Part shown: one piece after another, positions 28,271 through 50,414 of the stretch
Layout of the letters: each line of letters begins with the position of its first letter
Position numbering within the stretch: position 1 is the first letter of the stretch
From: Zygnema cylindricum
Taxonomy: Eukaryota; Streptophyta; Zygnematophyceae; Zygnematales; Zygnemataceae
DNA: 64,000 nucleotides
Direction of reading: 5' to 3'
Assembly (NCBI GenBank): GCA_037447655.1
Contig: JBBHKE010001237.1
Location: forward strand, 1 to 64,000
Notes under the pieces: generated by a model
Database searches by the model: none
Told to the model about the DNA's origin: nothing
The model's input: only the letters and a program-made list of their open reading frames with translations
Program-made: the position numbers and the translations under genes

Positions 28271-28907
28271 ACTAATAGCAACTTGTTTGGCATTCATGTC
28301 ACCTATTCTGAGGAATGAGGAGAATGATACTGATACTTGGGACTTCAACAATATGGCGGCAAAGTACTTCATCCTCCGCCATCTGACTCAGGGACTTGCA
28401 TGTCATTATTTGCAAGATGAAAGGGCATCCGGTCTTTGGATGGCTCTCATAAAGATGTACCGAAGAAGTACGATTCAACAACAACAGTTGGTTGATAAAA
28501 AAGTTAAGGAGTATGTATACAAAGGGGGGAAGATGTTTGATTTTTGCAATGAGCTTGCTACACTTTTCATGGAGCTAGAGGGTGCTGGAAAAGATTTTAG
28601 TGAAAAAGAAAAGGTTAACTGTCTACTGATAAAGTTACCCGATGAGTTCGAGAACATAGTCAACCATGTGCAGGACTTGCCAGACTCAAGGTGGATATGA
28701 AACTCAGTGGTAGGAATGATTCTCGTTTTGGAGAATACAATTGAGATGCGAAGGGGAGGAAAGAGTGGGCAAGCCTTGGCAGTTGTGACCGACTGGAAGA
28801 ACAAGAATTTCGAGGAGATCTGTCGGAAATTACAGAGGGGGGTAGCAGAAAAATTAGACCGACGAGTTTGGACCAACGGCTCCCTAGGGTTTATGTCATT
28901 TCTGTAA
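28271..28907 (+). pseudogene. Copia H gag, 5' truncated
   Basis: The 5' LTR and first gag codons are missing. 28287-28700 is open: DTWDFNNMAAKYFILRHLTQGLACHYLQDERASGLWMALIKMYRRSTIQQQQLVDKKV, YVYKGGKMFDFCNELATLF, LLIKLPDEFENIVNHVQDLPDSRW, then TGA (28698-28700). 28707-28907 continues with VGMILVLENTIEMRRGGKSGQAL, and a frameshift separates it from the zinc knuckle. Confidence 0.85.
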
Positions 28908-29478
28908 GAAACCAAGACACTATATGGCAGAGTGCACTAAGCTAACCGAGCTTCGGTTAAAGGAGGGGCTGACTAGTGGAACCCTGAGAGGAAAGAAAAA
29001 AGCCCTTGTGACACAGGTACATGAGGTGGAATCTGAAGACGAGGACGATGAGCTCCTTTTGGATGAGGAGTTGGTAGCGACAAACGAGGTAGAAATTCCA
29101 CAAAAGCAGAAATGTGCTTTCGGTGGATTGAAAGGTGAAGCACGCTGGATTATAGATTCACGTGCCTTCATGCACATGTGTAAGGATAAACACGTGTTCA
29201 CTAAGATAAGAATGATTCTCACCGTAGAGATAGAGTACGAGGATGGGAGGATAGTCACTACTACTCTTGTAGGATCAGTAGATCTGAAAGTGCTGGTAGA
29301 AGGAAAGACATCCATAGTTACATTCTCCGATGTATTGTTTATTCCTTAGCTGAACAAAAACCTCATGTCTACGTCTGTATTAGATGATAAGGGTTTTGAT
29401 ACTAGCACTCGGAAATGAGTCTTTACTGCTAGTTTTGAGGAGGAAGTTTATTTCACTGCTGAAAAAGGTAGCAAAGGT
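28895..29478 (+). pseudogene. Copia H zinc knuckle and protease
   Basis: Zinc knuckle C-H-F-C-K-K-P-R-H-Y-M-A-E-C, then KEGLTSGTLRGKKKALVTQV (the GKKKA motif where element A has a stop). The protease reads WIIDSRAFMHMC: the active-site Gly of DSG is Arg. It then has DGRIVTTTLVGSVDLKVLVEG and SDVLFIP followed by TAG (29347), and TGA at 29416. Inactive. Confidence 0.83.
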
Positions 29479-29889
29479 ATGTTTAGGCTGATTTTAAGCA
29501 ATGAAAAGAAAAAACTTTATTATGCTGGTGTTCATGATATAATGATGTGGCATAAGAGGTTTAGGCATGTGAATCTAGATAAACTAAGAGAGATGAAAAA
29601 GATGGGAGTGGTGGAAGGAATTCAGTTCAGTGAGAGTGAGAATCTAAGTGATTGTAGTGGATGTGCTCAAGGTAAAGCACACAGATTGCCCTTTCCGAAA
29701 ACAACCACCTATAGAAGAAAAAAAAATCTACATTTAGTACACACAGATATTTGGGGACCGGCCAAAGTGCCTTCACCAAGGGGGAAGAGATTTATGATGA
29801 GTATCACTGATGATTGGTCTTGGTATTCCAGGGTGTATTTTTTGAAAAATATGTCAGAAGCTCAAGATTGTTTTAGACAATAAAAAGCA
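29479..29889 (+). pseudogene. Copia H integrase, first part (cut by J)
   Basis: Zinc-binding WHKRFRHVNLDKL and CSGCAQGKAHRLPFPK, then catalytic HTDIWGPAKV and DDWSWYSRVYFLKNMSEAQDCFRQ. The frame is cut at AAGCA (29885-29889), the target duplication of element J. The missing half resumes at 46000. Confidence 0.88.
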
Positions 29890-30483
29890 TGCAACTCTGA
29901 GACCTCCATAGGACCTCAGAGTAAGCAGCTCACACGAAGCCTCTAGGATAACCCTGACCCCTTTAACTTTCAGCACGAATAATTGCCACCTTAGAAAATA
30001 AAAACTTTGACCACCTTCACCCCTATGAAAGCAAGACTCTCTTGAGTCGATAACAAAAAGAATCTTTGGATTTTCTCCCTTGAGCAATAAGTTATGGAGG
30101 GTCATAGTTGACCTTTTATTCAAAAGCTCTCTAGGAGAGAGGGTCCTATCTACCAATTTTTTCTAAGTCCTATCTCTCTGTAAAACTCTATCTACTGGTG
30201 TACGACACCTATAATATTACACTGTCGTACACAAAAGTACAACTGTCGGTGTACTTTATGTATAGATATTGTACGACATGGCCTAAATGTCGACACATGT
30301 CATATCCTGATTCGGTCCCGTAATCCCCGGAGATTCCACGATCCAACGTAAACGTGCCACGTGTCATCCGATATAGCGATGACCAAAAACCGCCGAGAAT
30401 CTTTTTCGCGATCTCGGCTTTTTTTTCGGCCATACGATTGAATGCAGATTTCAATCGTAGCCGTCATAAATGCTTGTGCGGTA
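29890..30483 (-). repeat. Copia J 3' LTR, first part
   Basis: Starts TGCAACTCTGAGACC and matches H and Q LTRs until TTGTGCGGTA, where L begins. It continues at 40853 with TGTGTTTCGTAAAAG, the expected next LTR bases. Confidence 0.88.
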
Positions 30484-31748
30484 TGTCAAGCTTAAGTGCT
30501 TTTCAGGCACACTTCTATATTACCGAGGATTTCCGTACTCTTCCGACCCGTAATATTCTCAGATTTCAGAGATGCCCGCACAACCTGCTAGAAGGATTGA
30601 AGCATTTCCTCTACTAAACAAGACGCACTTTGTTTCGTGCCTAACGGAGGCTGGACGACAAAGTTCTACCGTCTGAAAGATCGCAGTTCCGTCACATAGT
30701 ACTAGCTTCCACCAGCCCTAGTGGAGGGTACATTGTGGATTGCCACGTAGACTCCCAGACTGTAATCTAGATTTTGCTGTTAGCTGTCTGTAGCAATTCA
30801 GGTGAGATTCAGCTGATCAGTGGTTAATTAATTACATTAAGTCAAAGCTTGGCACTTCCGTGTCTTTTTAGTACTTTGTCTTAAAAAATGTGGAAGAAAT
30901 AATACCTTCCGGCCGCGGATCTAGCCGTGGTCAGAGGTCCAATTTTTTGCCCCCAAGAGTAGTACACATTATTTTGTCTTATGTCAATTTGATTGCCGTT
31001 GCTAATCGCTCATTGGCTAATAGCGTAGGTTTGACTTTTGGACCTGATTTTGGACAAAACTTTGATGTATAAGGCGCATGGGGCCGAAGGAGACAGGTTG
31101 CTTTTCAGTACTGTCTCCTGTGAAAACCCTCAAAAATTCCAACAAACCTTCTTTTGGAGAATCTTTGTGTTGTTTGACTCTTTTGCCATCTCTGTTTTGG
31201 ATTTGTCCATTTTGGGAATCATAGTTCGGGCTGGTGGTTGGCACTACCGCCCCTTTGGGTGATTTTTGGATTTTTCGCTGCTTGAAACTGAGAAGACTCT
31301 AGTCGGTTCCGAGCTGCGGACACCGAGGGTTGAAGGAGTACCATACCTATTTACACTGCCATCAGGAGAGACTTCGCCTTTCTCCCATTGTCATCGTAAA
31401 TTACCAGGGTAGGTTAAGCTTGCTTCGCCATCTTTTAAATCTTCCATCTTATATTTTATTTCTGTGGTCAAGGTGATATTGTTAAATCTGAAACAGCCAT
31501 TCCTATTTATTTTTATATGTCCACGTGGTAGTGCATTTGTGTCTTCACTTTTAGTCTCTTTTGCTTTGGCGCGGACTTCCCGGGGTAAAACTTCAATTTC
31601 TAGGCACCGAAACAGTGGGTTTTGAGGGAACGAATGCTATAGACTTCTTGTGGAATAAGCACAGTACTGAAAAACCCACCCTGTCTCCTTCGGATTAGAG
31701 GGGATAGGAGCTTTTTGACTTTAGAAGCTCTCTTGGCGGAAGCGAGTA
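30484..31748 (+). other. Element L 5' LTR/leader region
   Basis: No coding sequence is seen. It should hold the 5' LTR and PBS. A possible PBS is TGGCGCGGACTTCCCGGGG at 31567-31585, which has the layout of a tRNA 3'-end complement (TGG, acceptor, T stem), but the preceding bases do not end CA. An inverted pair of about 12 bp (GAAGGAGACAGG near 31085, CCTGTCTCCTTC near 31680) may fold. Confidence 0.45.
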
Positions 31749-32096
31749 TTGTTTTCTTTCGTTAATTCCTCTTTCGAGACCTTCGTCATCATGGGGGGAG
31801 GTGAAGGTCAAGATAAGAATCTCTCTGGTGCCAGGCCGGAAGAACGGGCGAATCTAGAAGCGGTGGTATCAGAAGAAGAGTCACAGATTCCCGAAGAATC
31901 CGTCCCCTTCACCTCGCTTGCCAACATAGAGCGGTTTCTCCAGGGGATGATGCCTGAGCCTGTTAGGGTTGAAACTCCTCCAAAACCACCCGAACCACAA
32001 ACTTCGCCCCCATTTCCTCCTAGCCTCACTCCTGAACATTTTCCCTCCTTGGCAGAGTCCTCCAGAACCTTTGCCGAGGAAAGAAAGGAGTCTTGA
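31749..32096 (+). CDS. Element L leader ORF, unknown function
   Basis: 115 codons: MFSFVNSSFETFVIMGGGEG, then an acidic region with SEEESQIPEESVPFTSLANIERFLQGMMPEP and a proline-rich end (PPKPPEPQTSPPFPP). It may be the N-terminus of gag, continuing in another frame at 32384 after a frameshift. No family is recognised. The second Met (VIMGGG) at 31791 is an alternative start. Confidence 0.45.
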   Translation: MFSFVNSSFETFVIMGGGEGQDKNLSGARPEERANLEAVVSEEESQIPEESVPFTSLANIERFLQGMMPEPVRVETPPKPPEPQTSPPFPPSLTPEHFPSLAESSRTFAEERKES

Positions 32097-32383
32097 ACAC
32101 AGGCTCAAGAAAGAAACCGAGTGTTACCCCGGGTTAGGCCAAAGAGGTAAGCTCAGCGGGAGCCCCTTTTGGGTCCCCTTCCGGAGGTCGGGCTTCACAC
32201 AAGATCAAAGATTCCCAAGGCCGAAATTCAGATTGACCCTGCGGTTTTGACGGATCCTAGCCGCCCTGTTCGAAAGGAACTCCTTGCTCTTCATGATCTT
32301 CATGAACTGAAGGTTAAGCAGGAGTTGGTGCAAAAAGTGTCTTGGTCGGATCGACCTCGGGTGGTTAAACCAGTGAAGGGGTA

Positions 32384-34054
32384 GTGGAGATTCTAAGTAG
32401 CTCTTCAGAGAGTGGTTCCTCCCAGTCCTTGCGGGAACGGCCCAGGAGGGCTCCTCCTTCTCGCCCTCCTCCATCTTCTTCCCAAGACACTGCAGCAAGC
32501 CTACCGTCCCGTGGGCGCCCAGCTTCGAGGTCTCGTAGGAGAGCCGGTGGCTGCGATAGCGGGGTTCCAGAGCTGGGGAGGGGGAAGAAGTTTGACCACA
32601 GGGATAGCAAGGGTAGATTTGCACCTATTCCCAAGGAAGAACCTTCCCCAACGCGAGTGCCAGTCTCCACCGAGAGATATACCCCTCCGGCACCCCGGGT
32701 CCGCCCTGATGGAGGGTTCTGGCGACCCGAACCCACTGACCGAGAGGTTCCGGAAACCGAACCAGAAGAGTTGTCCGAGGGATTGTTTCGAGCCAGGCCT
32801 ACAGATCCAGAAATTCTAGGAGCAGGGATAGCTGATCTGACCGGAGTAGTGGAAAGGGCTAAGGAACTAGTGGAAATTTTAAAATCACAGGGCTCGGCTA
32901 CGGCGGGGACTGGACGCGTTACAGTAGATTGGGAAGCGTTAGAGGAAAAACGGAGAAAGTTGTGGGAGCAGGAATTGAATCTCATTCGGGAAGCTAGGCG
33001 GAGGTCCAGTGGGATCCTCTTTGGGCGGATCCCTCCAACACCAGTAGCGGAAACCTCGCCCGGAGCTCCACCCTAGGCTCCTTCTTCAGAGATTGGTCAA
33101 GAACCTCCTCTCCAACGGGAAGAGGGGGCAGACACAAGACCTAATATTGGGGGTTTGGGTGCAGATTTACCGTCTGAACTCGAAGCGGCTCCGCGGGAAG
33201 AGCCTACTTTTGTTTTGGTGGAGGTTTCTGAAGCTGTTGAGGCCTTAGTGGAGTTACGACCGGATGAAAGAATTCACATCCCCTTGAGACCGTCTACACC
33301 TCTTTCTCCTCCACCCAGACTGTCCCCTGATCCTCCTCCTTTCCCTCCTCATCCTCCTACTTCCCACTCCCAGGCTTCGGCAGCAGAACCCCGGGACAAT
33401 CCCATCTCCTCTCCATCTCCTTCCGTTTCTCTTACTGGAGCCGACCGTGGGTCCCCAGGTCCGCTGAATTTACCCTATAAGTACGACGTATACTCCCCTC
33501 CTCACCGGCGTTCCCCATCCTCTAGTTCTGGAACTCCTCCCCTTGAAACCTCCAGAAGAAGGCCTCGGAAACCGACCGCGTCCAGGAGACAGACACCTTC
33601 TCCCCAGAACCGGCCTTCATCTCGATCCTCTTCTCCATCCCTACCCCAATATCCACCAGCAAACCGACCTCGGCTTCACTTCCCTTCCACGAAAACAGTT
33701 CTCCGAGACGAGCGATACTCCAATGAATATAGAGGGGTTGATATAGGGGAGTGGGCCCCTTCTACTTCAATCGGACAGACTGGCCCACAGATATCCTCTG
33801 CACCAAGAGAATCATCAAGGAATACCCTTCCTCCTACCACATTTCTAGGCACACGTACTTCCTTTGTTGGAGGAGATTCCACACTTCACAGGGCCACACC
33901 TCCTACCGGAGGAGGAGTCGGATCCATTGCCGAGGACGAGGACCTAGGAGCCACTTCGCCAGCCCAGTTTGTCAGTCCCACCGGACCTTCGTTGTCTCAG
34001 TTCACACATCCAACAGAGGAGGAAAAGGAAATGAGGACATCCGAATCTTTATAG
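32384..34054 (+). pseudogene. Element L proline/serine-rich pre-gag region
   Basis: One frame of about 556 codons with a single internal TAG (33074-33076). The first part (230 codons) is Ser/Arg/Pro-rich and then helical and charged (IADLTGVVERAKELVEILKSQG, WEALEEKRRKLWEQELNLIREARRRSSG), a possible coiled coil. The second (299 codons) is low-complexity Pro/Ser/Arg (TPLSPPPRLSPDPPPFPPHPP). Long disordered gag N-termini occur in some large gypsy elements. No domain is recognised. Confidence 0.55.
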
Positions 34055-34352
34055 GAGATAGCTCTGGGATAACTTTCTCTGATTTCGAATTGTTGTGGAA
34101 ATCCTTCACCTAATCTGAAATTAACAAGTACAGGGGAGGAGCTATTCGTGACGACTTCGAAAAAAATCTCTTTCCCATGATGGTCAACTACCTCTCTGGA
34201 GGGACGTTGGCAGATTATAAGGAGCGTCAACCTCTCTTGATGGCTCCAAGCATCAAAATCTTAGATCCGGCCCTGGATGCAGAAGTTTTACGAGCGGAGG
34301 CAGATTTGGCTGCCGCAGCGGTGACCTCTGTAAAGCTACCTTCATCGGTGAT

Positions 34353-35222
34353 ATGAAGTTGCACGCCCAAGGGAGGGCCTATGTTAACCAGCTGCAAGCA
34401 ATTCAGGCAGCTCGGGCCGCAACTCATATGGTGGCAAATCCTACCCCTTGCACCACTCTTCTAAACATCTGGAGACTCCTCTACACCGAGAGGAACGAAT
34501 CAACCATCAAGGAATTCACGGAATTCCGGTGTTTGAAGAATGAGACGCCTCAGACACTCTTTAACCGCCTCTCTAGTCTTTGTCAGAAGACTAAACTGTC
34601 TACCATTGACCTTCCCGCAATGGCGACCAAGTATTTCATTGCTGTCCGTAATTCCTTCGGACCGACAGGGCAGACTGCCTTGGATAACTGGATCGCAGGA
34701 CAGGCCATCCAGGACATAAATCCCTCGGCCAAGGACATATCCCTGGTGGCCATGAAGTTATACGACCACTTCGTTCACAGTGAGGCGAGAGAAAAAGCCG
34801 TGACCGGCAAGGCAAGAGCGAATTTTGCAGGATTCGCCGGGGAAACTTCCTTAAGTGGGGAAGAACAAGCGGAACTCCAAGCTTTGCGGAAGCTTAAAGG
34901 GAAGCAAGTTGTGGACAGCGGGCCAAAACATGCAATGGGGGCCGACGATCGGGTGATTCTGTACAATTGCCTAAATTGTCAACAACCTGGATATGGATGG
35001 AAACGCTGCAGCAAGGAACTCAAACCGGAGCTAGCCCTCAAGTTGAAAGAATGGGAGGTAGAGCGTTTAGAAAGGATCCAGAAGCAGCATGAAGAAAGGC
35101 TCAAAGCAGGGGGGGGGGGAGAGAACACCGGTCACAAAGAACAATTACCGACCCACTCCCCGGAGCGAAACTTCGAAAATTTCCCAGTCCCAACTGCGGC
35201 AAATCAAACTGCCAAAGTTTGA
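34353..35222 (+). CDS. Element L gag capsid region
   Basis: 289 codons. Residues about 30-130 resemble the retrotransposon gag fold (LLNIWRLLYTERNESTIKEFTEFRCLKNETPQTLFNRLSSLCQKTKL, then ATKYFIAVRNSFGP). A first knuckle-like C-L-N-C-Q-Q-P-G-Y-G-W-K-R-C has Tyr where His is expected. A charged helix (LKEWEVERLERIQKQHEERLKAGGG) follows. The frame ends TGA at 35220, and a second, standard zinc knuckle (C-E-A-C-G-F-M-G-H-K-E-G-Q-C) lies in the next frame near 35278. A frameshift therefore separates the two knuckles. Confidence 0.75.
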   Translation: MKLHAQGRAYVNQLQAIQAARAATHMVANPTPCTTLLNIWRLLYTERNESTIKEFTEFRCLKNETPQTLFNRLSSLCQKTKLSTIDLPAMATKYFIAVRNSFGPTGQTALDNWIAGQAIQDINPSAKDISLVAMKLYDHFVHSEAREKAVTGKARANFAGFAGETSLSGEEQAELQALRKLKGKQVVDSGPKHAMGADDRVILYNCLNCQQPGYGWKRCSKELKPELALKLKEWEVERLERIQKQHEERLKAGGGGENTGHKEQLPTHSPERNFENFPVPTAANQTAKV

Positions 35223-35250
35223 CGATGCTCAGATCTCTAACGAGATTTGA

Positions 35251-36213
35251 AGCCAGTATACCACTGAGGGTCACAAATGCGAAGCATGTGGTTTTATGGG
35301 GCACAAAGAGGGACAATGTTTCCGGAAGAACAGAATACCTAAGGAAATGATGTAATTCGCTTTGTTCACGGGAGGAGGAGAGACTGCCGTTAACCCTCTT
35401 CCCCTACAACTCTTTTATCCTTGGGAGCGCCCAGTGCTGCCTACCCCAGTGACGCCAAAACCATTAACAACTGCTCCCGCAAGACTTACACCAGAGATAA
35501 TAATCCAACAGCAGAGTAAGCAGATGGCTGCCATGGCTGCAGAATTGGCTGCACTTCGCTTGGGGTCGACTTACCGGCCTGCTCCTCTTACGGCAGCGCA
35601 ATGACTCCAAAGACAAAAGCAAGAGTTACTACAAAAGCTAGCGGAGCTTGAGCTTCAAAGCACATCGGGTGTTAATGACAATGATTTGATGGGCTGGGAT
35701 TTGGAACCCCGAAATGCCCACCATGCAAACAGTTTCTTGCATGGAGCATGGAATGTTGGAGTGGGAGATGGTCGTAGACAACTCCGCTCCTCAACCTCGG
35801 ATCAAAGGAGAGACAAGCGGAAAATGGGCCAAAAGGACCACAACCGGAAGGCCACCGGGCCTTTGTCTTTGACGCCCAGGGCAATCATTCTGAACAGTGA
35901 CATAGGCCTTGGGATCAAGCCCACTCAACCCCCTCCTCTTCCTCCTCGACCTAAATTGCCTCCCGGTTTCGAAAATTACAAGAAAGAGAAACTGCAGCAG
36001 GAGACAAAATCACTGGAAGAGGACAACCAAAGCACACAGGATTGGTTTGAGCGGGTTATGGCCAAATGCCTGGACGAACATGCACCGTAAACTCCACCCG
36101 TACCTGATTCTGGTTCTGAAACTGATGGCAACGAAGAGATAGAACCGGATCAGGAACAGAATCCGCCGACATCCTCCCCTAGAGCTCCGCTCCATTCCTC
36201 CAAGCCTGTTGTT
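35251..36213 (+). pseudogene. Element L gag-protease linker with second zinc knuckle
   Basis: In one frame: the zinc knuckle near 35278, TAA (35353), an alanine-rich helix (QQQSKQMAAMAAELAALRLG), TGA (35602), NDLMGWDLEPRNAHHANSF, a proline-rich PPPLPPRPKLPPGFENYKKEKL, TAA (36088), then the protease frame. The three stops each differ from CAA or CGA by one C-to-T change. Confidence 0.6.
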
Positions 36214-36960
36214 ATGCTGGTCCGGCATTTGATGCCTTATGCCTTGACACATGTTAAGACCCTTGCTTCCTCCCATAATCTGCCCGAAGAGATCCTCATT
36301 CAAGCCCTGGGAGAAGAGATCCATTCTGGAAAAGACAAAGTCGACAGGGTGACACCACCCACGGTGGTATACTTGTCTTCAGATCCTAAGACCCTTATGG
36401 CAAATAGGGACTACAAAACTTTGTCCGTGGCACTCTTTCTAAACCGGACCGGGAATTTCAAACTGAACGGGTACGGCGGGTATCAGGACGATGTGGTTGA
36501 TACCGGAGCACTTCCCAACCTCATCACTACTTCTGCATTGCAGAAAATGCCGGAAGAACTCAGACCCCAGATCTGCCCGAGTAACATCTGCTTGAGCACA
36601 GTCAGCAGCGGCAATCAGCCAGCCCATGGGATCATCAAAGCCATGGACATTGAATTCTCAGATGATGCGGGACTGAAGGTGAAAATTGGACTTTTTTTCT
36701 TAGTGGTGGAAGGGAATCAGTTTGAAATTCTTTTGGGAATGGCAACTTGGACCCTCATGAATATGAGTTTGAGTGTTTGGAAGGAGCAATGTACAGTTCG
36801 GGACCCAGGAAATCTCGAAGGAACCCAAGTTGTGGTTCGTTTGGATTTATGGAACCGGGGAAAGACGAATGTTCTAGTGTCTGGCTGTTACCTCGTGTAT
36901 TCTACCACCTCTCCGGCCGAGCTGTTTGACAGTTCCACAGATATTGCCGGAGACATCTAG
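36214..36960 (+). pseudogene. Element L aspartic protease
   Basis: 248 codons. The active-site motif DDVVDTGALPNLIT holds D-T-G at residues 96-98. It is followed by LSTVSSGNQPAHGIIKAMDIEF and the ILLGMATW segment, which matches the I-I/L-G-M-D pattern of retropepsins. It would cut the polyprotein. The frame ends with TAG (36958-36960), and the same frame is open again at once into the methyltransferase, so the TAG is the only barrier between the two. The bases after the stop are CAATTC. Confidence 0.8.
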
Positions 36961-37008
36961 CAATTCCCAATTTCCAAGCGGTGGGAGAGAGAATACACAG
37001 ACACATTA

Positions 37009-38667
37009 TTGCAGGTGGCGAAACTCCGGCGGGGAGTGGATCAAACATTCTCGGCCTTACTCTTATCGAAAACAGATTCGACGATCCAGTCAGATGTTTT
37101 CAAAACCAAGACTGGAAGCGAGGACTTCAATCGACAAGTGGTGTCATTGACAGTCCCAGACTCCGGACTTCAGATTTTATCTTTATTTTCAGGAATCAGT
37201 TTTGATTTGGAGGCAGTTTTAAAGGCAGGGTATCGAGTGGAGTCATACACAGCAGTGGAAATTTCATCGGAAGCGCGAGCTGTCACTGAACACCGCCTAC
37301 ATCAATTGCACCGCTTATATCCTCAACATCTTCCAGTGTCTTCCATTTCCAAAGCTCACCGGAGTCTTCCCCAGAATGTGGATAATATAATGGCACCTCA
37401 TTTAGCTAGTCTGGGAAGAGTAGATGTGGTTGTGGCGGGATGGCCTTGTCAGGGATACTCCCTTGCAGGACAAGGAAGAGGGCATCAGGACCACCGAAGT
37501 GGAACATTCTATCAGATGATTACATCGATATCGTGGATTCAGCAGCTCCAAGACACACCAGTGGGGTACATTCTGGATAATGTCCACCCGGGGGATGATA
37601 AACGAAAGCAAGTTGCAGAAAGTTGGAATCAGGTAACCAGTACTCTGGGAGCTCCCTTGGTTTTTGACGCTCCTCAAATGGGGTCTCGAGCGCACAGACT
37701 CCGGGCATATTGGACCAATATGATCCCTCTTCCAGTCCTTCGGCAACTGTTAGACACACAAACCCACGACCCCCAGATTTTAGTGCAAGAGATACTTCGA
37801 AAAGGGAGAATGGCGACACCTGTAACAAAACCGGATCATACAACTTTCTTCCAATGCAATATCCCCGGATTCCCACGTCGAGCACTCCTCACGTTGGTAT
37901 CTTTTCCTCACAGTCACGCCTACCGGAAAGGAGCGGGTGGAATGATTTTTGACAGTAAGGAAAGACTTTGGACAACACCAACAATAACGGAACGAGAACA
38001 AGTAATGGGATTTCATCCGGAAACCACGGCAGCACCAGGTATTTCAGACCTACAGCGGTGCAGCCTCATAGGGCAAAGCATGGATTTAAATGCCATTACA
38101 TGGGTTGTGAAGCATGCTCTTGCCTATTCCAGTCTCCACGCTCCAGATTCACGCAGAAATTACCTTCAAGCTCCACAGTTATTGTCCATGCAAGCAACTT
38201 TGCAGCTTGAGGGGGGGAGAGAAAAGAGAAAAATTCTATACCCAAGAGTTCCTTCAGCGGGGGGGAACAGGAGCTCAGAAAGAGACAGCTTAGCGGAAGT
38301 TGTCAGCAGTAAAGTATTATCCGGAGGAATAGAGGCAGATCCACACGTTGGGCTAGAATTCGACATCAACCTTTGGGGAAGACCACCGGAAGCTTGGGCT
38401 GCGGTTGAGCCGGGAAAAACGGATTGGACTCTGGGGGAGCAGCTGGACCCTCAGCAGAAAGAACAGCTAACAGAACTCTTGGCTAGAAACACTCAAGTTT
38501 TCTCATGGTCCGAAACAGATGTCGGAATCTACAAAGGAACCCCCTTTCGGATAGATTTGATTGACGAAACCGCAACGGTTTGGCAGAAACAATATCCTCT
38601 CAGCTTCAAAGAGAAAGAGTTTATTACTGCAAAGGTTCAAACTTTCGTGGACGCAGGGTTGGTTTAG
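37009..38667 (+). CDS. Element L cytosine-5 DNA methyltransferase fused to RT N-terminus
   Basis: 552 codons open. C5-MTase motifs are in canonical order: I, LQILSLFSGISFDLEAV (54-70); IV, VVVAGWPCQGYSL with catalytic Cys147; VI, YILDNV (ENV in most enzymes, here Asp); VIII, APQMGSRAHRLRAYWTN; IX, ITEREQVMGFHPET; X, CSLIGQSMDLNAITWVVKHAL. The wording around VIII-X (AHRxRxxW, ERxxxGF) resembles DNMT3 more than DNMT1 or chromomethylases, and it is not circularly permuted like plant DRM. C5-MTases transfer methyl from AdoMet to cytosine. Residues about 440-552 are the N-terminal gypsy RT (TPFRIDLIDETATVWQKQYPLSFKEKEFI). TAG ends the frame at 38665; RT continues in frame after it. The ATG at 37009 is nominal; the natural product is probably a polyprotein. 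Confidence 0.88.
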   Translation: MQVAKLRRGVDQTFSALLLSKTDSTIQSDVFKTKTGSEDFNRQVVSLTVPDSGLQILSLFSGISFDLEAVLKAGYRVESYTAVEISSEARAVTEHRLHQLHRLYPQHLPVSSISKAHRSLPQNVDNIMAPHLASLGRVDVVVAGWPCQGYSLAGQGRGHQDHRSGTFYQMITSISWIQQLQDTPVGYILDNVHPGDDKRKQVAESWNQVTSTLGAPLVFDAPQMGSRAHRLRAYWTNMIPLPVLRQLLDTQTHDPQILVQEILRKGRMATPVTKPDHTTFFQCNIPGFPRRALLTLVSFPHSHAYRKGAGGMIFDSKERLWTTPTITEREQVMGFHPETTAAPGISDLQRCSLIGQSMDLNAITWVVKHALAYSSLHAPDSRRNYLQAPQLLSMQATLQLEGGREKRKILYPRVPSAGGNRSSERDSLAEVVSSKVLSGGIEADPHVGLEFDINLWGRPPEAWAAVEPGKTDWTLGEQLDPQQKEQLTELLARNTQVFSWSETDVGIYKGTPFRIDLIDETATVWQKQYPLSFKEKEFITAKVQTFVDAGLV

Positions 38668-39930
38668 GAAAGCACTGGACTCCATGGGTTTGCTTCCCCC
38701 ACAGTTCTCCCTCCCAAAAAGGATTCATCCGGGAAAACTGTGGACTTCCAAATGTGTGGGGACTACCGCATGTTGAACACGGCCACCATTCCTGACCGGT
38801 ACCCAATGCCAACTCCGGAAGAGATATTCGACTCTCTTGCTGGGGCCACTATTTTCTCCACATTGGACATGAAGAATGGTTTCCACCAGATTGCCATGGA
38901 ACCAAAACAACGGGAGAGAATGGCATTTGGGCCAAATCTAAACTTTATGAGTGGCTTTACATGCCTTTCGGACTGAAGAATGCACCAGCAAAGTTCCACC
39001 GGGCCATGGACAAAGCGCTCCGAGGAATCGATTGTGCCAGGTGCTACATCGACGATGTGATAATATTTTCCAAGACCTTTGAAGAACACTTGGAGCATAT
39101 CCGGATCGTTCTCCGGGCTCTTCAAGCAGCGGGCTTGAAATGTCACCCGGGCAAGGGTATTTTTGGAATGCAGAAAATCATTTACCTCGGACATGAGGTA
39201 ACTCCTAGGACATTGGGTCCCCATATGGTGAAGGTTGCAGCCCTCGACGCTCTTCCTCCCCCGCAGGACATTTCTGCCTTGCGCACCTTTCTCGGCCTGG
39301 CTAACTACTATCGCAGGTTTATTCTCGAGTTCAGTAGTCACGCCCAGCCCCTGAATAAGCTATTATGGAAAGATCAAGAATGGCAGTGGGCCGAGGAACA
39401 GCATATCGCTTTCCAGTTCTTGAAGGATGCCCTGAAGCAGCACCCAGTGCTCCGGATGCCTGATTACCAGAGGCCTTTCCTCCTTTACACTGATTGGAGC
39501 AGGTTTGGATTGGGAGCTGTTTTGGCTCAAGTTGACGACGCAGGTGCCAAATATGTGGTGGCTTACGCAAGCCGGAGCAATAACCGAGTTGAGGGAAACT
39601 ATAGCAGTTATCATGGGGAGCTTCTTGCCGCGGTTTGGGCCATCCAGCATTTCAAACCTTATTTGTACGGGGTCCATTTCACACTAATCACCGATCACCA
39701 ACCCTTGAAGTGGATCATGGAAAATAGTAAGTTGACCGGCAAACTCGCCAGATGGGTTCTTATCCTGCAAGAACATGATTTCAGCATTGTCCACCGGGCA
39801 GGGGAAATTCATGGGAATGCCGACGGACTGAGCCGAAACCCCGATCCTTCTACCCTGGATTCCACCGGGGCTCGGCACGACGAGGATCCGGAAACCAGTT
39901 TTGGACTCATTCGAGCATCCTCCGTCTTGA
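38668..39930 (+). pseudogene. Element L reverse transcriptase and RNase H
   Basis: Continues after the TAG at 38665: TVLPPKKDSSGKTVDFQMCGDYRMLN, PMPTPEEIFDSLAGATIFSTLDMKNGFHQI. A one-base frameshift lies near 38930, then MPFGLKNAPAKFHRAMD, the active site YIDDVIIFS and the primer-grip/thumb (GHEVTPRTLGP, FLGLANYYRRFI). RNase H follows: LLYTDWSRFGLGAVLAQ, YHGELLAAVWAIQHF, LITDHQPLKWIMENSKLTGKLARW and HGNADGLSR. The order is that of Ty3/gypsy. Catalytic residues are present, but the stop and the frameshift break the protein. Confidence 0.92.
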
Positions 39931-40461
39931 TTAGGCTTCTTCCATCTGGGGGGGAATTGTCAACTTTTGCAGTAGATGTTGAGGGGCAGGCACCCATGGG
40001 AGCCGGACGAAAAGACATTTGGAATGACTCCGAAGCTCTCCAATCTATTCAACCGGGATCCCCTCTTCCCCACTTGGCTGGAATTCAATTAGCGCCGGAG
40101 CGGAGATTATATGCCCCGACAGCGACGATTTGTGCCAGGGGACTTTGTGTATCGCATGCAACAAAAGAAGGACACGCTTCACATTTTTGCCGGGCGGGTG
40201 ATCTTGAAAGTGGTGGAAGTTTCAAATAAGGGAGTTCTGACTTTGGAGGGGAAATATGGGCGAAGAATTAAAGAAAATCAAATCAATGTGGCCCATTGTC
40301 ACCTCCGAGGATTAGAAGACGAACCGACTTTCCACTTGACTTACTTTACCGATCCTCTTTCCTGTTCATCATCCTGCAACTTGTCCTCCCAGCAGCAAGA
40401 CATCTTGGTCAGCCATCAGTGCGGGCAGTGCTCGCATCCAGCTTGTCTCCCCTTCTCATAG
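39931..40461 (+). pseudogene. Element L integrase remnant (core missing)
   Basis: After RNase H comes GRKDIWNDSEALQ, the usual lead into integrase. The zinc-binding HHCC and the D-D-E core are absent. In another frame from about 40105 is PRQRRFVPGDFVYRMQQKK, GRVILKVVEVSNKGVLTLEGKYGRRIKENQINVAHCHL, which has the pattern of the gypsy integrase C-terminal domain. Roughly 0.8 kb coding for the catalytic core must have been deleted near 40060-40100. Confidence 0.65.
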
Positions 40462-40848
40462 GAACCACGCCCTCCATCCCCTAGTCCATGGTTCTGCGGG
40501 AACTGTGAATTGGGTGGGTAACTATTTCTTTTTCTTAGCCACTGTTGACTAAGAGGGGGAGAAATTGGGGCACCAACCCGATTACCGAGAACCCTACCCC
40601 TTTCCCTGGCTTTATGGGGAAAGTAAGGGGGAGGGGAGATCTTTTCGCCTTCCTATGCACTCATCCCTATTCCCTATCCTTGTGCCTCTCCTATCTGTGC
40701 ATGCATTCCTGTTGGGAGGGATGGGGTCAGCAGTGGGCATTATCATTATTATGGGAAGCATTCGCATTGGTGGGTTCTTTGCAGGACGCCGAGACCGGCC
40801 ATTCCAAGCAGTGGGCCCTTCCCTTGTGTTTCTCTGGCACGCTCGACA
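40462..40848 (+). other. Element L 3' end, purine tract and probable short LTR
   Basis: No gene. AAGAGGGGGAGAAATTGGGG (from 40551) looks like a polypurine tract, placing a 3' LTR of about 285 bp up to GCTCGACA at 40848. This segment has no evident match at the 5' end of L. Confidence 0.5.
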
Positions 40849-40852
40849 GGTA

Positions 40853-41204
40853 TGTGTTTCGTAAAAGAAAAAAAATGCGCGGTAATCGTTTCTTATCCAT
40901 ATCGAAATCCGTACGTTTACATAACTGGATCTATGTATCCGTAAACATCCTCCGTTAAATGAATATCCCTACGTGGCAACATTTTAATAAATATCAAACC
41001 AAGTAGTATTTATCTTAATGTCTAGACTTAACGGATAAGTCTACCAGCTACAGGCGTTTTGACGGTCGCCAGGTAGCAGGATCAAATCCTGGTTCAGACA
41101 TACTCTTTTTAGCAAATTAACCTACCTATTTGTAAATGAACTAATCTATTTTCCGTAAGCCTCTGGATAGCCTAGGTAGCCATGGCTCTAGCTTCCTTTC
41201 CAAT
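40853..41204 (-). repeat. Copia J 3' LTR, second part
   Basis: Resumes the J LTR after L and runs to GCTTCCTTTCCAA, where it joins integrase coding sequence. It contains the tRNA-like block 41018-41101: D-arm hairpin GACTT-AACGGAT-AAGTC, T-arm hairpin CAGG-ATCAAAT-CCTG, and outer ATGTC pairing with GACAT. Confidence 0.8.
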
Positions 41205-42356
41205 CTGACTCAAATTTAAATTTTTCTGACTCAAATCTGATTTTTACTGACTTTGTATACTTGAAGGGATCCACAGACTTTCCTTCATCCATAACTACTA
41301 GATGTTTTACAAAGATTATATTTTCCCTTTTTAGATTGTAAACTCTATATCCTTTAACATCCTCATCATATCCTAATAAGTATCGCGATTTTCCTTTAGG
41401 ATCTTGCCTCCAATTAGATCGATCTGTATCTAGACTGAATACTTGATTACCGAAAACCTTTAAGTGAGATATGTCTGGTTTTCGACCGGTCCATCTCTCA
41501 TAAGGTGTTTGATCTTTTATAGTTAAGTTAAAAACTCTATTTTTGAGGTAATAAGCGTAGTTCATTGCTTCTGCCCGAAAACCTTTTCCTATCTTCTTAT
41601 CCGACAACATACATCTAGCACTATCACGCAGTGTCCTATTTAATCGTTTAGCCACCCCATTATTTTCCAGGTTTTCTGGAAGTGTCTTTTGGTGTTGAAC
41701 TCCATCTTCCTTAGAAAATCCTCAAACTGGTTAGAAGTATACTCTCTACCATTGTCACTCCTTACTCTCATGATAGGAGTTTCATGGAGTTTTTCGCTCC
41801 ATGCTTTATATTGTCTAAAACAACCTTGAGCTTCTGACTTGTTTTTAAAAAAATACACCCTGGAATACCGAGACCAATCATCATAGATAGTCATCATAAA
41901 TCTCTTCCCCCTTGGTGAAAGGACTTTGGCCGGTCCCCAAATATCTGTGTGTACTAAATCTAAAAAAAAAATCTCCCGTATAGGTGGTTGTTTTGGGAAA
42001 GGGCAATCTGTGTGCTTTACCTTAAGCACATCCACTACAATCACTTAGATTCTCACTCTCACTGAACTCAATCCTTCCACCACTCCCATCTTTTTCATCT
42101 CTCTTAGTTTATCTAGATTCACTTGCCCAAGCCTCTTATGCCACATCATTATATCATGAACATAAGCATAATAAAGTTTTTTCTTATCATTGCTTAAAAT
42201 CAGCCTAAACATCCATAGGCTACCTTTTTCAGCGGTGAAATAAACTTCCTCCTCAAAACTAGCAGTAAAGACTCCTTTCCTAGTGCTAGTATCAAAACCT
42301 TTATAATCTAATACAGACGTAGAGATGAGGTTTTTGTTCAGCTCTGGGATAAACAA
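41205..42356 (-). pseudogene. Copia J integrase
   Basis: Minus strand. 42356-42045: FIPELNKNLISTSVLDYKGFD (protease end) and MMWHKRLGQVNLDKL (zinc-binding His). 42044-41640: CTKVKHTDCPF region, LVHTDIWGPAKV, DDWSRYSRVYF, VRSDNGREYTSNQFEDFL. 41655-41188: catalytic Glu region decayed, then AKRLNRTLRDSARCMLSDKKIGK and RYLLGYDEDVKGYRVYNLKRENIIFVKHLVVMDEGKSVDPF. Frameshifts lie near 42045 and 41650. The end runs into LTR sequence, so RT and RNase H are deleted. Confidence 0.85.
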
Positions 42357-42740
42357 TACAATCGGAGAATGTAACTATGGATGACTATCCTCCCATCCCC
42401 GTACTCTATCTCTACAGTGGGAATCATTCTTATCTTAGTGAAAAGGTGTTTATCCTTACACATGTGCATGGAGGCACCTGAATCTACAATCCAGCCTGCT
42501 TCAGCTTTCAATCCACCGAGAGCACATTTCTGAATTCGTGGAATTTCTACCTCGTTTATCGCTTCCAACTATTTTTCCATTAGAAGCTCATCGTCCTCGT
42601 CTTCGGATTCCACCTCATGTACATGTGTCACAAGGGCCTTTTTCTTTCCTCTCCCGGTTCTACCAGTCAGCCCCTCCTTTAACCGAAGCTCGGTTAGCTT
42701 AGTGCACTCCGCCATATAGTGCCGTGGTTTCTTACAGAAA
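42338..42740 (-). pseudogene. Copia J protease and zinc knuckle
   Basis: Minus strand: the zinc knuckle region near 42740-42690 (CNFCKKPRHYMAECTKLTELRLKEGL in decayed frame), then EIPRIQKCALGGLKAEAGWIVDSGASMHMCKDKHLF with an intact D-S-G and EIEYGDGRIV. A deletion and frameshift near 42365 cut the second half of the domain. Confidence 0.78.
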
Positions 42741-43600
42741 TTACATAAACCCTTGGGAGCCCTTGGTCCAAACTGGTTAGTCTCATTTTTCTGCTCCCCC
42801 CCTCCGTAATTTCCGACCGATCTCCTAGAAATTCTTGTTCCTCTTATCGGTCCCAGCTACCAAGGTTTGTCCACTCTTTCCTTTTTTTCGGATCTTAATT
42901 GTATTCTCCCGAACGAGAATCATTCCTACCACTGAGTTCCATATCCACCTTGAGTCCGGCAAGTCCTGCACATGGTTGACTATGTTCTCGAACTCATCGG
43001 GGTAACTTCATAAGTAGAAAGTTAACCTTTTCTTTTTAACTAAAATCTTTTCCAACACTCTCTAGCTCCATGAAAAGTGTAGCAAGCTCATTGCAAAAAT
43101 CAAACATCATCCCCTCTTTGTTTACATACTCCTTTACTTTCTAATTAGCCAATTGTTGTTGCTGAATTGTACCACTTTGGTACATCTCTATGAGAGCCAT
43201 CCAAATATCGGATGCCCTTTCTTCATGCAAATGAGTAAGATGGCAGAGTATGAAGTGTTTTGACACCATATTGTTCACGTCCCAGGTATTAATATCATTC
43301 TCCTCGTTCCTCGGAATAGGTGATATGAATGCCGAACCAGTTGCTTTTAGTGTGGTCGTCTCCTTCTCATTTCCTTTGTCCACCACCGCTCATTCCTTTG
43401 TCTCTTCCGTTGAAGATGGATCTGCATCTCTAGTAAATCTGCCTCTTGTAAACCATGGAGGTATCCTAAGACTGGATGGGCGCCTCACCTGTCCACTCAC
43501 TATTCCCCAAAATCGTTATTCACATAGAGCTCATCTCATCATACTTTCCCAGTATATGAAGCCGGCTCCATTAAATATTGGCACCTTAGATGGTGGGCCC
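42741..43600 (-). pseudogene. Copia J gag
   Basis: Minus strand. 43386-43141: ETTTLKATGSAFISPIPRNEENDINTWDVNNMVSKHFILCHLTHLHEERASDIWMALIEMYQSGTIQQQQLAN. The rest (43140-42741) is broken by stops but shows FCNELATLF and LPDSRWIW. The N-terminus (43600-43387) runs to the PBS complement at 43592-43606 (GGTGGGCCCATAACC on the plus strand). Confidence 0.82.
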
Positions 43601-44519: not shown

Positions 44520-45840
44520 TGTTGTTTTGAAAACGTAGTTTCGTGCGTACTCCACGTTTTGTGCGCATGCGACGTTTCGTGCGTATGTTATTACCGAAAG
44601 TAATGTGGTTATACAAATGGAGGTTCGAATGGATTTGTGGATTGGGGGAGTAAATGTATGAGTAAAATTAAAGGGACGTGATGGAGTAAATGAGTGGCGC
44701 GGAATGCGTTAAAAAATGGACGGCGGATTGCGACGCGATCCGACGTTAAATATTTGAAGAGACTAAAATGGTACGTCGCACGTACGAAACATAATGCGAC
44801 AAGTGGCATTTATGGAAAAAGACGCGACGGTACAAAGAATCTTATTTTACAAGAGTGCTTAAAATTGGTGGGCGTAATTTATGGCGTAGTACGTAATTGC
44901 AGTACAGACAAATTTGGATGGTTTGACGTCGTTTCGTCAAGTGGAATTTGGGATCACGTGGCGCGACATCGAGGGTGCCGAACAAGAGCGACGGACGGCG
45001 CACAAAGGCCGCCGGTATTTTTCAAGTAGTGGTGACGCGAAATCGCGTCAATCATACAATATCTATTTTTGGACGGCTCGGATTGTTTTACGAGATTCCT
45101 AGAGTCTTGTTGACTTACGCGCAATGACTCAGCATACGATTTTGTTGTCGGTGTAAATATTTGGTAAACATTGTTTTGTCTTTTTGTGAATTAGTTATTA
45201 GTGTACTTTTACTCATTTTGACATACCTTGAAGTATTCGGGTATACTAACATTAATTGAGGTAGCTGGTAGATAGCGTACGGCTGGTATGCCTCCGTACG
45301 TTCAGTAGTGAGCTCTAGTTTACATTTGTAGGACTTAGTCATTTTAAGACATAGGGAACTTTCTTTACCAAAAACTGTTTATGGTCATTTTTGGTAATTT
45401 TGTCTGAGTATTGCTCTCAATCTGTTGGCAAAATTATGTGAAATTTTGCATGTATGTTTTTCCTTATATTGTATACCTTGCTACAGATTATGTGAAATTT
45501 TGCATGTATGTTTTTCCTTATATTGTATACCTTGCTACAGATTTGCAGACCTATTGTGTGTCTGGTCTGTGTGTAATTTTATTGTGAAGTTGTCAGTTTT
45601 ATCAAAGTTCTGGCAGACTGTTTTTCTGCAACTTTGACTAGATGATGTGATCACTCTTTTTATTATTTTTGTCTGAAACTTTGTGAGGTCATTTTATAGC
45701 CTAATAACTATCTATCTTTAGAGTTTCAGCTTGGTTTAATATTTCTGTAGAATTCTGTGTTTATTCAAAGTAGGCTGTTTTTGGGTAGTCTGTGGTGCTT
45801 CTGAGGGTAATTCCATGGCTGAAAATGGCTATGGACAACA
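44520..45840 (+). mobile_element. Solo LTR M (E-type family)
   Basis: 1321 bp, TGTTGTTTTG to GGACAACA, flanked by GATAG (44515-44519, 45841-45845). Its end (TCCATGGCTGAAAATGGCTATGGACAACA) parallels the E LTR end, including the gag ATG (MAENGYGQ). No interior is present, so it arose by LTR-LTR recombination. It contains a perfect 54-bp tandem duplication (45433-45486, 45487-45540). Confidence 0.9.
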
Positions 45841-49349: not shown

Positions 49350-50414
49350 TGTAATATCGATCGTTATTTTTTTATTTTCTAGGTCTAAATTGGAATATAG
49401 AAAGAAGCCGAGGCAGACTGTCTCTAACTTCTCTCTCCAATTCCCACACTTGATGTAGTCACTGAGAAGTTGGAGAGGAAGCTAAAGCCATGGCTACTTA
49501 GGCTATCGAGAGGTTTACGCGAAATAGATTAGTTGATATACGCATAGGTAGGTTAATTTGCTAAAAAAAGTTTGTCGGAACCAGGATTTAATCCTGGTAC
49601 CTTCTAACCGTCAAAACACCGGTAGCCGGTAGGCTTATCCGATAAGTCTAGACATTAAGATACATACTACAAGGTTTGATATTTATTTAAATGTTGCAAC
49701 GTTGGAAAATTCATTTAACGGCGGATGTTTACAAATACATAGATCCATTTATGTAAACGTACGGATTTCGGTATGGATAAGAAACGAGTACCGCGCATTT
49801 TGTTTGTTTTACGAAACAAATACCACACAAGCATTTATAACGGCTACGATTGAAATTTGTATTCAATCGGACGACCGAAAAGAAAGTCGGGATCATGAAA
49901 GAGATTCTCAACAGTTTGTGGTCATCGCCACATCGGATGACACGTGGCATGATTACGTTAGATCGCGACATATCCGGGGATTACAGGACCGAATACGGAT
50001 ATGACATGTGTTAACATTTAGGCCATGTCGTACAATTTCTGTACATAAAGTACACCGCCAGCTGAACTTTTGTGTATGGCAATGTAATATGATTCGTGTC
50101 GTACACCAGTAGATAGAGTTTTAGAGAGAGATAGGACTTAGATCAAATTGGTAGATAAGACCCTCTCTCCTAGAGAGCTTATGTATAAAAGGTCAACTTT
50201 GACCCTCCATAACTTACTGCTCAAGGGAGCAAATTCAGAGATTCTTTTTGCTATCGACTCACGAGAGTCTTGCCTTCATACGCGTGAAGGTGGTGAGAGT
50301 TTTTGTTTGCCAGGGTGATAATTATTTGTGCTGAAAGACAAAGGGGTCAAGGTTATCCTAGAGGCTTCGTGTGAGCTGCATACTCTGAGGTCCTATGAAG
50401 GTCTCAGAGTTGCA
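49350..50414 (+). repeat. Copia H 3' LTR
   Basis: 1065 bp, TGTAATATCG to GAGTTGCA. The next bases TGCTT are the complement of AAGCA inside another copia integrase (50415 on). The minus-strand tRNA-like block at 49570-49658 has a perfect 7-bp T-arm-type hairpin (ACCAGGA-TTAAA-TCCTGGT). Confidence 0.9.

Follow-up and report, generated by a model that had tools for sequence, protein, structure and literature searches.

A 64,000-bp stretch of the Zygnema cylindricum genome (contig JBBHKE010001237.1, positions 1 to 64,000; the window) contains an element that is probably a degenerate member of an old and abundant lineage of Ty3/gypsy retrotransposons with a captured DNMT3-type cytosine methyltransferase (DNMT). 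The original prediction described a gypsy polyprotein in which one unbroken frame runs from protease (PR) through a C5-methyltransferase into reverse transcriptase (RT). The protease D-T-G is present, and a gypsy RT follows the DNMT together with RNase H (RH). The frame itself is not continuous: a TAG (36958-36960) splits PR from DNMT, which are in the same phase, another TAG follows at 38665-38667, and the frame shifts near 38.92-38.93 kb. The Pfam model Asp_protease_2 gave only weak matches (0.0014 in copy L027 and 0.00078 in copy L084). Because of its frameshifts, the second TAG, the deletion of the integrase (IN) core and the change of motif VI from ENV to DNV, the window copy is judged to be inactive.

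The genome (352.8 Mb, 2689 contigs) was searched with a pattern for the junction that follows the first TAG. It matched 236 places compared to 1 for the reversed pattern, a lower bound on copy number. Many of these copies have the PR-DNMT-RT order that a genome search was predicted to recover, which rules out a single freak copy. Three lineages were distinguished. Family A (17 copies including the window copy) encodes gag and PR, then the TAG, then DNMT-RT-RH-IN-PHD, and its C1374 copy has a 1520-aa open reading frame (ORF) downstream of the TAG. The junction of family B (4 copies) lacks a stop, and its C1344 copy is a single 2395-aa ORF encoding gag-PR-DNMT-RT-RH-IN-PHD. The third lineage, L084, has a 1162-aa Gag-PR-DNMT frame, the sequence TAG CAA TCA and a 1047-aa RT-RH-IN-PHD frame. 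L084 (41% identity, 4e-76) lies on contig CADCWO010000201.1, filed as the uncultured Synechococcales cyanobacterium AVDCRST_MAG81; this contig also carries L090, and its ends share 127 identical bases. Gypsy elements are not known from cyanobacteria, and the contig is therefore probably misfiled or misbinned eukaryotic DNA. DNMT identity is about 42% between families A and B and 41% between family B and L084; the corresponding RT-to-PHD values are 47% and 51%. The DNMT occupies the same place in the same domain order in all three, which suggests a single capture that predates the lineage split.

RT, RH and an rve-type IN are arranged in PR-RT-RH-IN order in the C1374 copy and the family B ORF; the window copy is without the integrase core. 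Pfam detected rve and H2C2 in two complete ORFs and found no phage integrase (tyrosine recombinase) in either. RT copies were collected by scoring the best 150 of 3057 candidates (DNMT locus searches likewise covered the best candidates only). A listed DNMT match or junction lies upstream in 47 of the 73 RT copies on contigs C1 to C1266. Reading 20 of the remaining 26 revealed a DNMT in 14 and none in 6, for a total of 61 of 67 related RT copies examined with DNMT or junction upstream. Of the six stretches without a DNMT, five match repeats found elsewhere in the window, with a match of just 97 bases in L108; the sixth, L101, matches the element's own 5' end. PR is joined straight to RT in none of them. 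The copies lacking a DNMT at this site that the original prediction had raised as a counter-indication did not appear among the 67 examined, and the DNMTs upstream of other RT copies rule out an insertion confined to the window copy. A 5743-aa open frame at C961 was discarded as probably an N run (487 of the 651 bases of the stretch are N).

The DNMT was compared with domain models and solved structures. PF00145 matched the window copy with an E-value of 1.1e-7 and better preserved copies with 8.2e-13 and 2e-11. DNMT3A, DNMT3B and DNMT3C were the top solved matches for five queries, with DNMT3A E-values of 5.8e-9 for the window copy, 1.1e-14 for L006, 1.8e-10 for family B and 2.1e-8 for L084. 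A 7-sequence profile ranked DNMT3A (1.2e-18) above HaeIII (1.4e-7), HhaI (2.8e-7) and DRM2 (1.2e-6) among solved structures, the set to which this closeness to DNMT3 refers; DNMT1 had no match up to 1e-3 in the same search. The motifs stand in canonical order, so the enzyme is not permuted like DRM and is classified from its sequence as DNMT3-like, as originally proposed. Of the motif assignments made at the outset, the canonical order and the Pro-Cys-Gln (PCQ) of motif IV are correct, and motif VI is altered. The catalytic cysteine of motif IV is kept in 21 of 21 aligned copies, as PCQ in all 17 family A copies and ECQ in all 4 family B copies (L013, L014, L023 and L024). Motif VI retains its glutamate in 20 of 21, the window copy with aspartate being the exception. 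The domain resembles animal and plant DNMT3 in motif order and closest solved structures, but differs in being embedded in Pol and in a stretch between motifs I and IV that is ~17 residues longer than in DNMT3A. PWWP, ADD and DUF3444 were absent from the Pfam matches of the two complete ORFs. An NCBIfam search returned general dcm-type models only, under cut-off, and an AlphaFold2 model of the window DNMT made without an alignment (mean pLDDT 35) was not used.

Bacterial contamination or an assembly artefact is a very remote explanation. The filing of the L084 contig under a cyanobacterium speaks for it. Against it are the hundreds of copies across many contigs of the genome, the gypsy type of RT and IN, the target duplication that flanks the window element where it is inserted in a repeat, and the distance between DNMT3A and the best bacterial enzyme in the profile search, which also answers the concern about a bacterial origin in the original prediction. 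For the window element, this evidence refutes contamination. A DNMT scan of viral contigs gave 29 loci with 27-53% identity over short stretches, taken from the listing for ordinary phage methyltransferases, and a scan of genome contigs gave 5 loci, four Streptomyces matches and L084. A separate methyltransferase exon, L007, is located on another contig of the same genome. Its nearest PDB entries are 9mvy, 7ubu and 4fsx (8.1e-28 to 8.8e-28), and the next entries are DNMT1 at 6.6e-12, ~16 orders weaker. PDB 4fsx is the maize chromomethylase ZMET2. Chromomethylases are described as plant-specific and earliest in charophytes in the available text of PMC6453930. The exon thus points to a streptophyte as the host.

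The TAG between PR and DNMT is conserved. It occurs in 16 of 17 junctions from fetched loci including the window, and TAGCAATTC in 15 of 17 (L003 and L012 being the same copy). A further 20 junctions contained TAG in 19 and CAATTC in 20, and the pooled values are 35 of 37 for TAG and 34 of 37 for TAGCAATTC. This 9-mer scored highest (0.985) of 168 alignment windows compared ungapped at fixed offsets, a method that scores distant columns too low. Genome-wide, 215 of the 236 places found without requiring TAG have it, with 1 match each for the reversed controls. These counts favor intact junctions because the 20 further junctions were drawn from matches starting at residue 1 and the pattern presupposes CAATTCC. 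Many listed copies carry other stops within the DNMT frame, indicating that the TAG outlasts general decay. The conserved TAG is read here as a putative programmed readthrough signal. Readthrough of the tobacco mosaic virus type follows the context rule UAG-CARYYA. The UAG-CAA-UCA of L084, located 3' of the DNMT and not 5' as in family A, fits this context, and the UAG-CAA-UUC of family A nearly does. Ribosomes would read through the UAG to produce Gag-PR in excess and DNMT-Pol in small amount. Three observations count against readthrough: the family A CAATTC breaks the rule at its last base; a strong fold 3' of the stop was found in only 2 of 6 sequences (z of -4.0 for L012 and -4.3 for L084, compared to -0.7 to -1.1 for the other four); and family B has no stop whatever. 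Host reassignment of TAG to Gln was rejected, as no in-frame TAG occurs in the 2395-aa ORF of family B.

The same TAG could instead be part of a splice acceptor, with DNMT-Pol made from spliced RNA as in gypsy elements with a PR-RT intron. Introns are known in plant gypsy elements, and by our reading ATCTAG/CAATTC could act as an acceptor. However, PR and DNMT keep their phase across the TAG in the aligned junctions and the window, which would be unnecessary under splicing; in L084 a TAG with CAATCA follows the DNMT; and family B keeps one frame with no TAG. Splicing is an improbable alternative to readthrough.

Purifying selection acts on the DNMT-gypsy family. In family A, the median dN/dS (nonsynonymous to synonymous substitution rates) was 0.26 for DNMT (48 pairs), 0.20 for RT (37), 0.19 for RH (36), 0.28 for IN (29), 0.26 for PHD (22) and 0.52 for the linker (39), calculated from those of 136 possible, non-independent pairs with dS of 0.05-1.2 and >=60% of codons. 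The proposed comparison of DNMT segments among copies gave a signature of constraint. Between the window and C1374 copies, the DNMT had a dN of 0.197 with saturated dS, and RT had a dN of 0.044 and a dS of 1.49. DNMT and RT distances correlate with a Spearman coefficient of 0.80 (153 pairs, 18 copies), including L026, which seems to carry the RT of another element. Both trees are poorly resolved inside family A. A less comfortable result is that the DNMT evolves faster than RT.

What the DNMT methylates was considered under three readings. It would be packaged with RT and IN and then methylate the cDNA or new insertion of the element itself, a target to which we give roughly even chances. A rather unlikely reading is that the DNMT is a passenger or acts on host chromatin near the insertion or broadly against host methylation, for example through mimicry of host marks or the titration of factors. 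The sequence does not fix the target, and the sheer number of copies (236 junctions or more) could affect a host across its genome; purifying selection on the DNMT argues against a passenger. A non-catalytic or RNA-directed role, for example as a nucleic-acid chaperone, is the least probable of the three. It is consistent with ECQ in place of PCQ in family B, and with the enzyme of the Klebsormidium nitens element, which had no activity in yeast, a result its authors call inconclusive (available text of PMC5890265) and one that also counts against methylation of the element's own DNA. The retention of the catalytic cysteine and motif VI glutamate opposes it.

The ends are not plain identical long terminal repeats (LTRs); the repeats are split in the order A-coding-B-A-B. 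In the C1344 copy (10641 bp, flanked by TTGG), the parts follow the order A1, coding, B1, GC, A2, B2; A1 and A2 are identical over 931 bp, and B1 and B2 agree along 243 bp apart from one gap. The near-identity of these repeats (99.6-100%) indicates a recent copy. This copy (G000:C1344, around 84363-97062) is nested in a different gypsy-like element, judged by eye from RT- and integrase-like sequence on either side of it. B-GC-A-B was found at the 3' side of C507, C1870 and C1042, B then A in L018 and L021, and B-GC-A in the C1407 copy, which is truncated on its 5' side; the window copy, the C1374 copy and L027 stop exactly after B. No end was found for L019 in the same comparison. In L011 with L052 (C1042), another A region (72% identical) with its own degenerate B-A junction lies past B2, representing two adjacent elements. 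B starts next to a purine run and A2 abuts B2 directly, and for this reason A2/B2 looks like an LTR-LTR joint, with the inserted ends at the palindrome that separates B from A. The inserted form would be cut at this palindrome, GACAGCTGTC. Of the three copies whose ends were both read, the window copy (GGTA) and C1344 (TTGG) have 4-bp target duplications; C1374 has none, which is at odds with this scheme. The element combines a DIRS repeat order with an rve-type integrase.

In each lineage, the complete pol ORFs that were read have a PHD finger at their C-terminal end. The family B domain matched PF00628 with 1.5e-9 and PHF12 with 1.2e-15, and the L084 domain had a value of 1.2e-11. The family A domain is under the Pfam cut-off (0.0044; 17.5 versus 24 bits), a weakness in this assignment, but its C4HC3 Cys/His pattern nevertheless aligns. 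The window copy has only a broken remnant. A PHD finger behind IN may read histone H3 and steer insertion.

The original prediction pointed to captured methyltransferases in retrotransposons of dinoflagellates and a streptophyte alga, and this precedent is documented by de Mendoza et al. 2018 (PMC5890265), whose available text is the basis for the comparisons here. KnitGypsy-Dnmt3 of K. nitens has a DNMT3 in a gypsy Pol, and the Fig. 4 legend gives it DIRS repeat structure with gypsy domains. The present elements share an unrearranged DNMT3 in an LTR gypsy Pol, DIRS-type repeats, purifying selection on the DNMT and a streptophyte host. Their DNMT dN/dS median is well below 1 yet above the Ka/Ks < 0.2 reported for K. 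nitens, which has fewer copies than Symbiodinium. They add a C-terminal PHD finger, a conserved in-frame TAG next to the DNMT and a division into three lineages, compared by description only; 'PHD', 'readthrough' and 'zinc finger' are absent from the main text of PMC5890265. SymbioDIRS-Dnmt3 and SymbioLINE-Dnmt of Symbiodinium also have a DNMT in or beside Pol, and SymbioDIRS has the A-coding-B-A-B order, but these elements use a tyrosine recombinase or LINE endonuclease in contrast to the gypsy-type rve integrase here. SymbioDIRS DNMTs methylate CG in yeast (PMC5890265). A later source, with reference to the 2018 work, mentions streptophyte and dinoflagellate LTR Copia and DIRS elements that have a DNMT3 (available text of PMC12344493). 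Ty3/gypsy elements (Metaviridae) share the PR-RT-RH-IN order, TG...CA ends and short target duplications, and differ in lacking the DNMT, the PHD finger and the split repeats. A search for the element names beyond PMC5890265 gave only a 'DNMT3-encoding' mention, and no relevant title on PHD fingers or split repeats in gypsy elements was found in a search that left subscription papers mostly outside. The suggestion that the placement may be new was overstated, since K. nitens already has a DNMT3 in a gypsy Pol. Within the literature searched, the core idea is already known from the K. nitens report; the present analysis adds the scale, the lineages, the PHD finger and the proposed recoding stop.

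The UAG stands before the DNMT in family A and after it in L084, and family B lacks it. A tentative proposal is that the parts of the element would form an epigenetic kit to place and mark its own insertions: a DNMT3-type writer dosed by a movable UAG recoding site, a PHD reader on the integrase tail and a circle-junction palindrome where circular DNA is opened by the rve integrase.

The features of the window copy are listed in Table 1. The C1374 copy maps onto the window as DNMT-RT at 36961-38928, RT-RH at 38919-40094 and the pol tail at 40078-40518.

Table 1. Features of the DNMT-gypsy element in the window
Feature	Position	Strand	Basis or remark
Whole element, 10365 bp	30484..40848	+	Starts TGTCAAGC, finishes GCTCGACA; termini agree with other copies
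Left target-site duplication GGTA	30480..30483	.	Flanks read directly
Right target-site duplication GGTA	40849..40852	.	Flanks read directly
5' repeat half A and leader, 3' boundary approximate	30484..31787	+	30903-31531 is 72% identical to C1374 copy 5' end
gag, frameshift-broken, six pieces	31788..35340	+	tblastn with C1374 gag pieces
Zinc-knuckle-like CLNCQQPGYGWKRC, atypical spacing	34968..35009	+	Translation; no Pfam match
Protease region	36136..36957	+	71.5% identity to C1374 PR region
Protease D-T-G	36499..36507	+	Sequence
In-frame TAG, conserved in the context TAGCAATTC; putative readthrough stop	36958..36960	+	Junction comparison
DNMT-containing frame, to copy-specific TAG	36961..38664	+	Translation, Pfam
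DNMT3-like C5-methyltransferase domain	37138..38130	+	Pfam, matches to solved structures
Motif IV, PCQ	37444..37452	+	Sequence, copy alignment
Motif VI, Asp-Asn-Val (DNV not ENV)	37576..37584	+	Glu in 20 other copies compared
Copy-specific in-frame TAG	38665..38667	+	Gln at same place in C1374 copy
RT, frameshift near 38919-38928, 3' end approximate	38668..39300	+	Pfam, mapping of C1374 copy
RNase H	39387..39773	+	PF17917, PF17919
Point of loss of integrase residues 1062-1373 (C1374 pol numbering)	40078..40094	+	Mapping of C1374 copy
C-terminal part of integrase and remains of PHD finger; stop codons at 40090 and 40459	40078..40518	+	Translation, mapping of C1374 copy
Purine-rich run, polypurine-tract-like	40551..40570	+	Sequence
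3' repeat half B, 5' boundary approximate	40571..40848	+	Alignment with other copies

The empty site is visible in intact copies of the flanking repeat within the window (around 49791-49860, minus strand; 43.8-44.6 kb). Parts of a Copia-type element, a label taken from translated ORFs and not from a family search, and an inverted counterpart flank the insertion (28408-30484 and 40849-43400), and several related repeat copies are present in the window. A tRNA gene at 2263-2335 is the sole Rfam match at gathering threshold within the window, and a perfect 54-bp tandem duplication is located at 45433-45540.

Mobile elements are usually the targets of methylation; here, a family keeps its own methyltransferase under long selection. 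Both the scale and the variety of a combination known from one alga exceed what the available text of that report tells. With the DNMT joined to a histone-reading module and an odd integration cycle, why a parasite methylates DNA becomes testable, using a recent copy with near-identical ends and several deep lineages among which the position of the stop differs.

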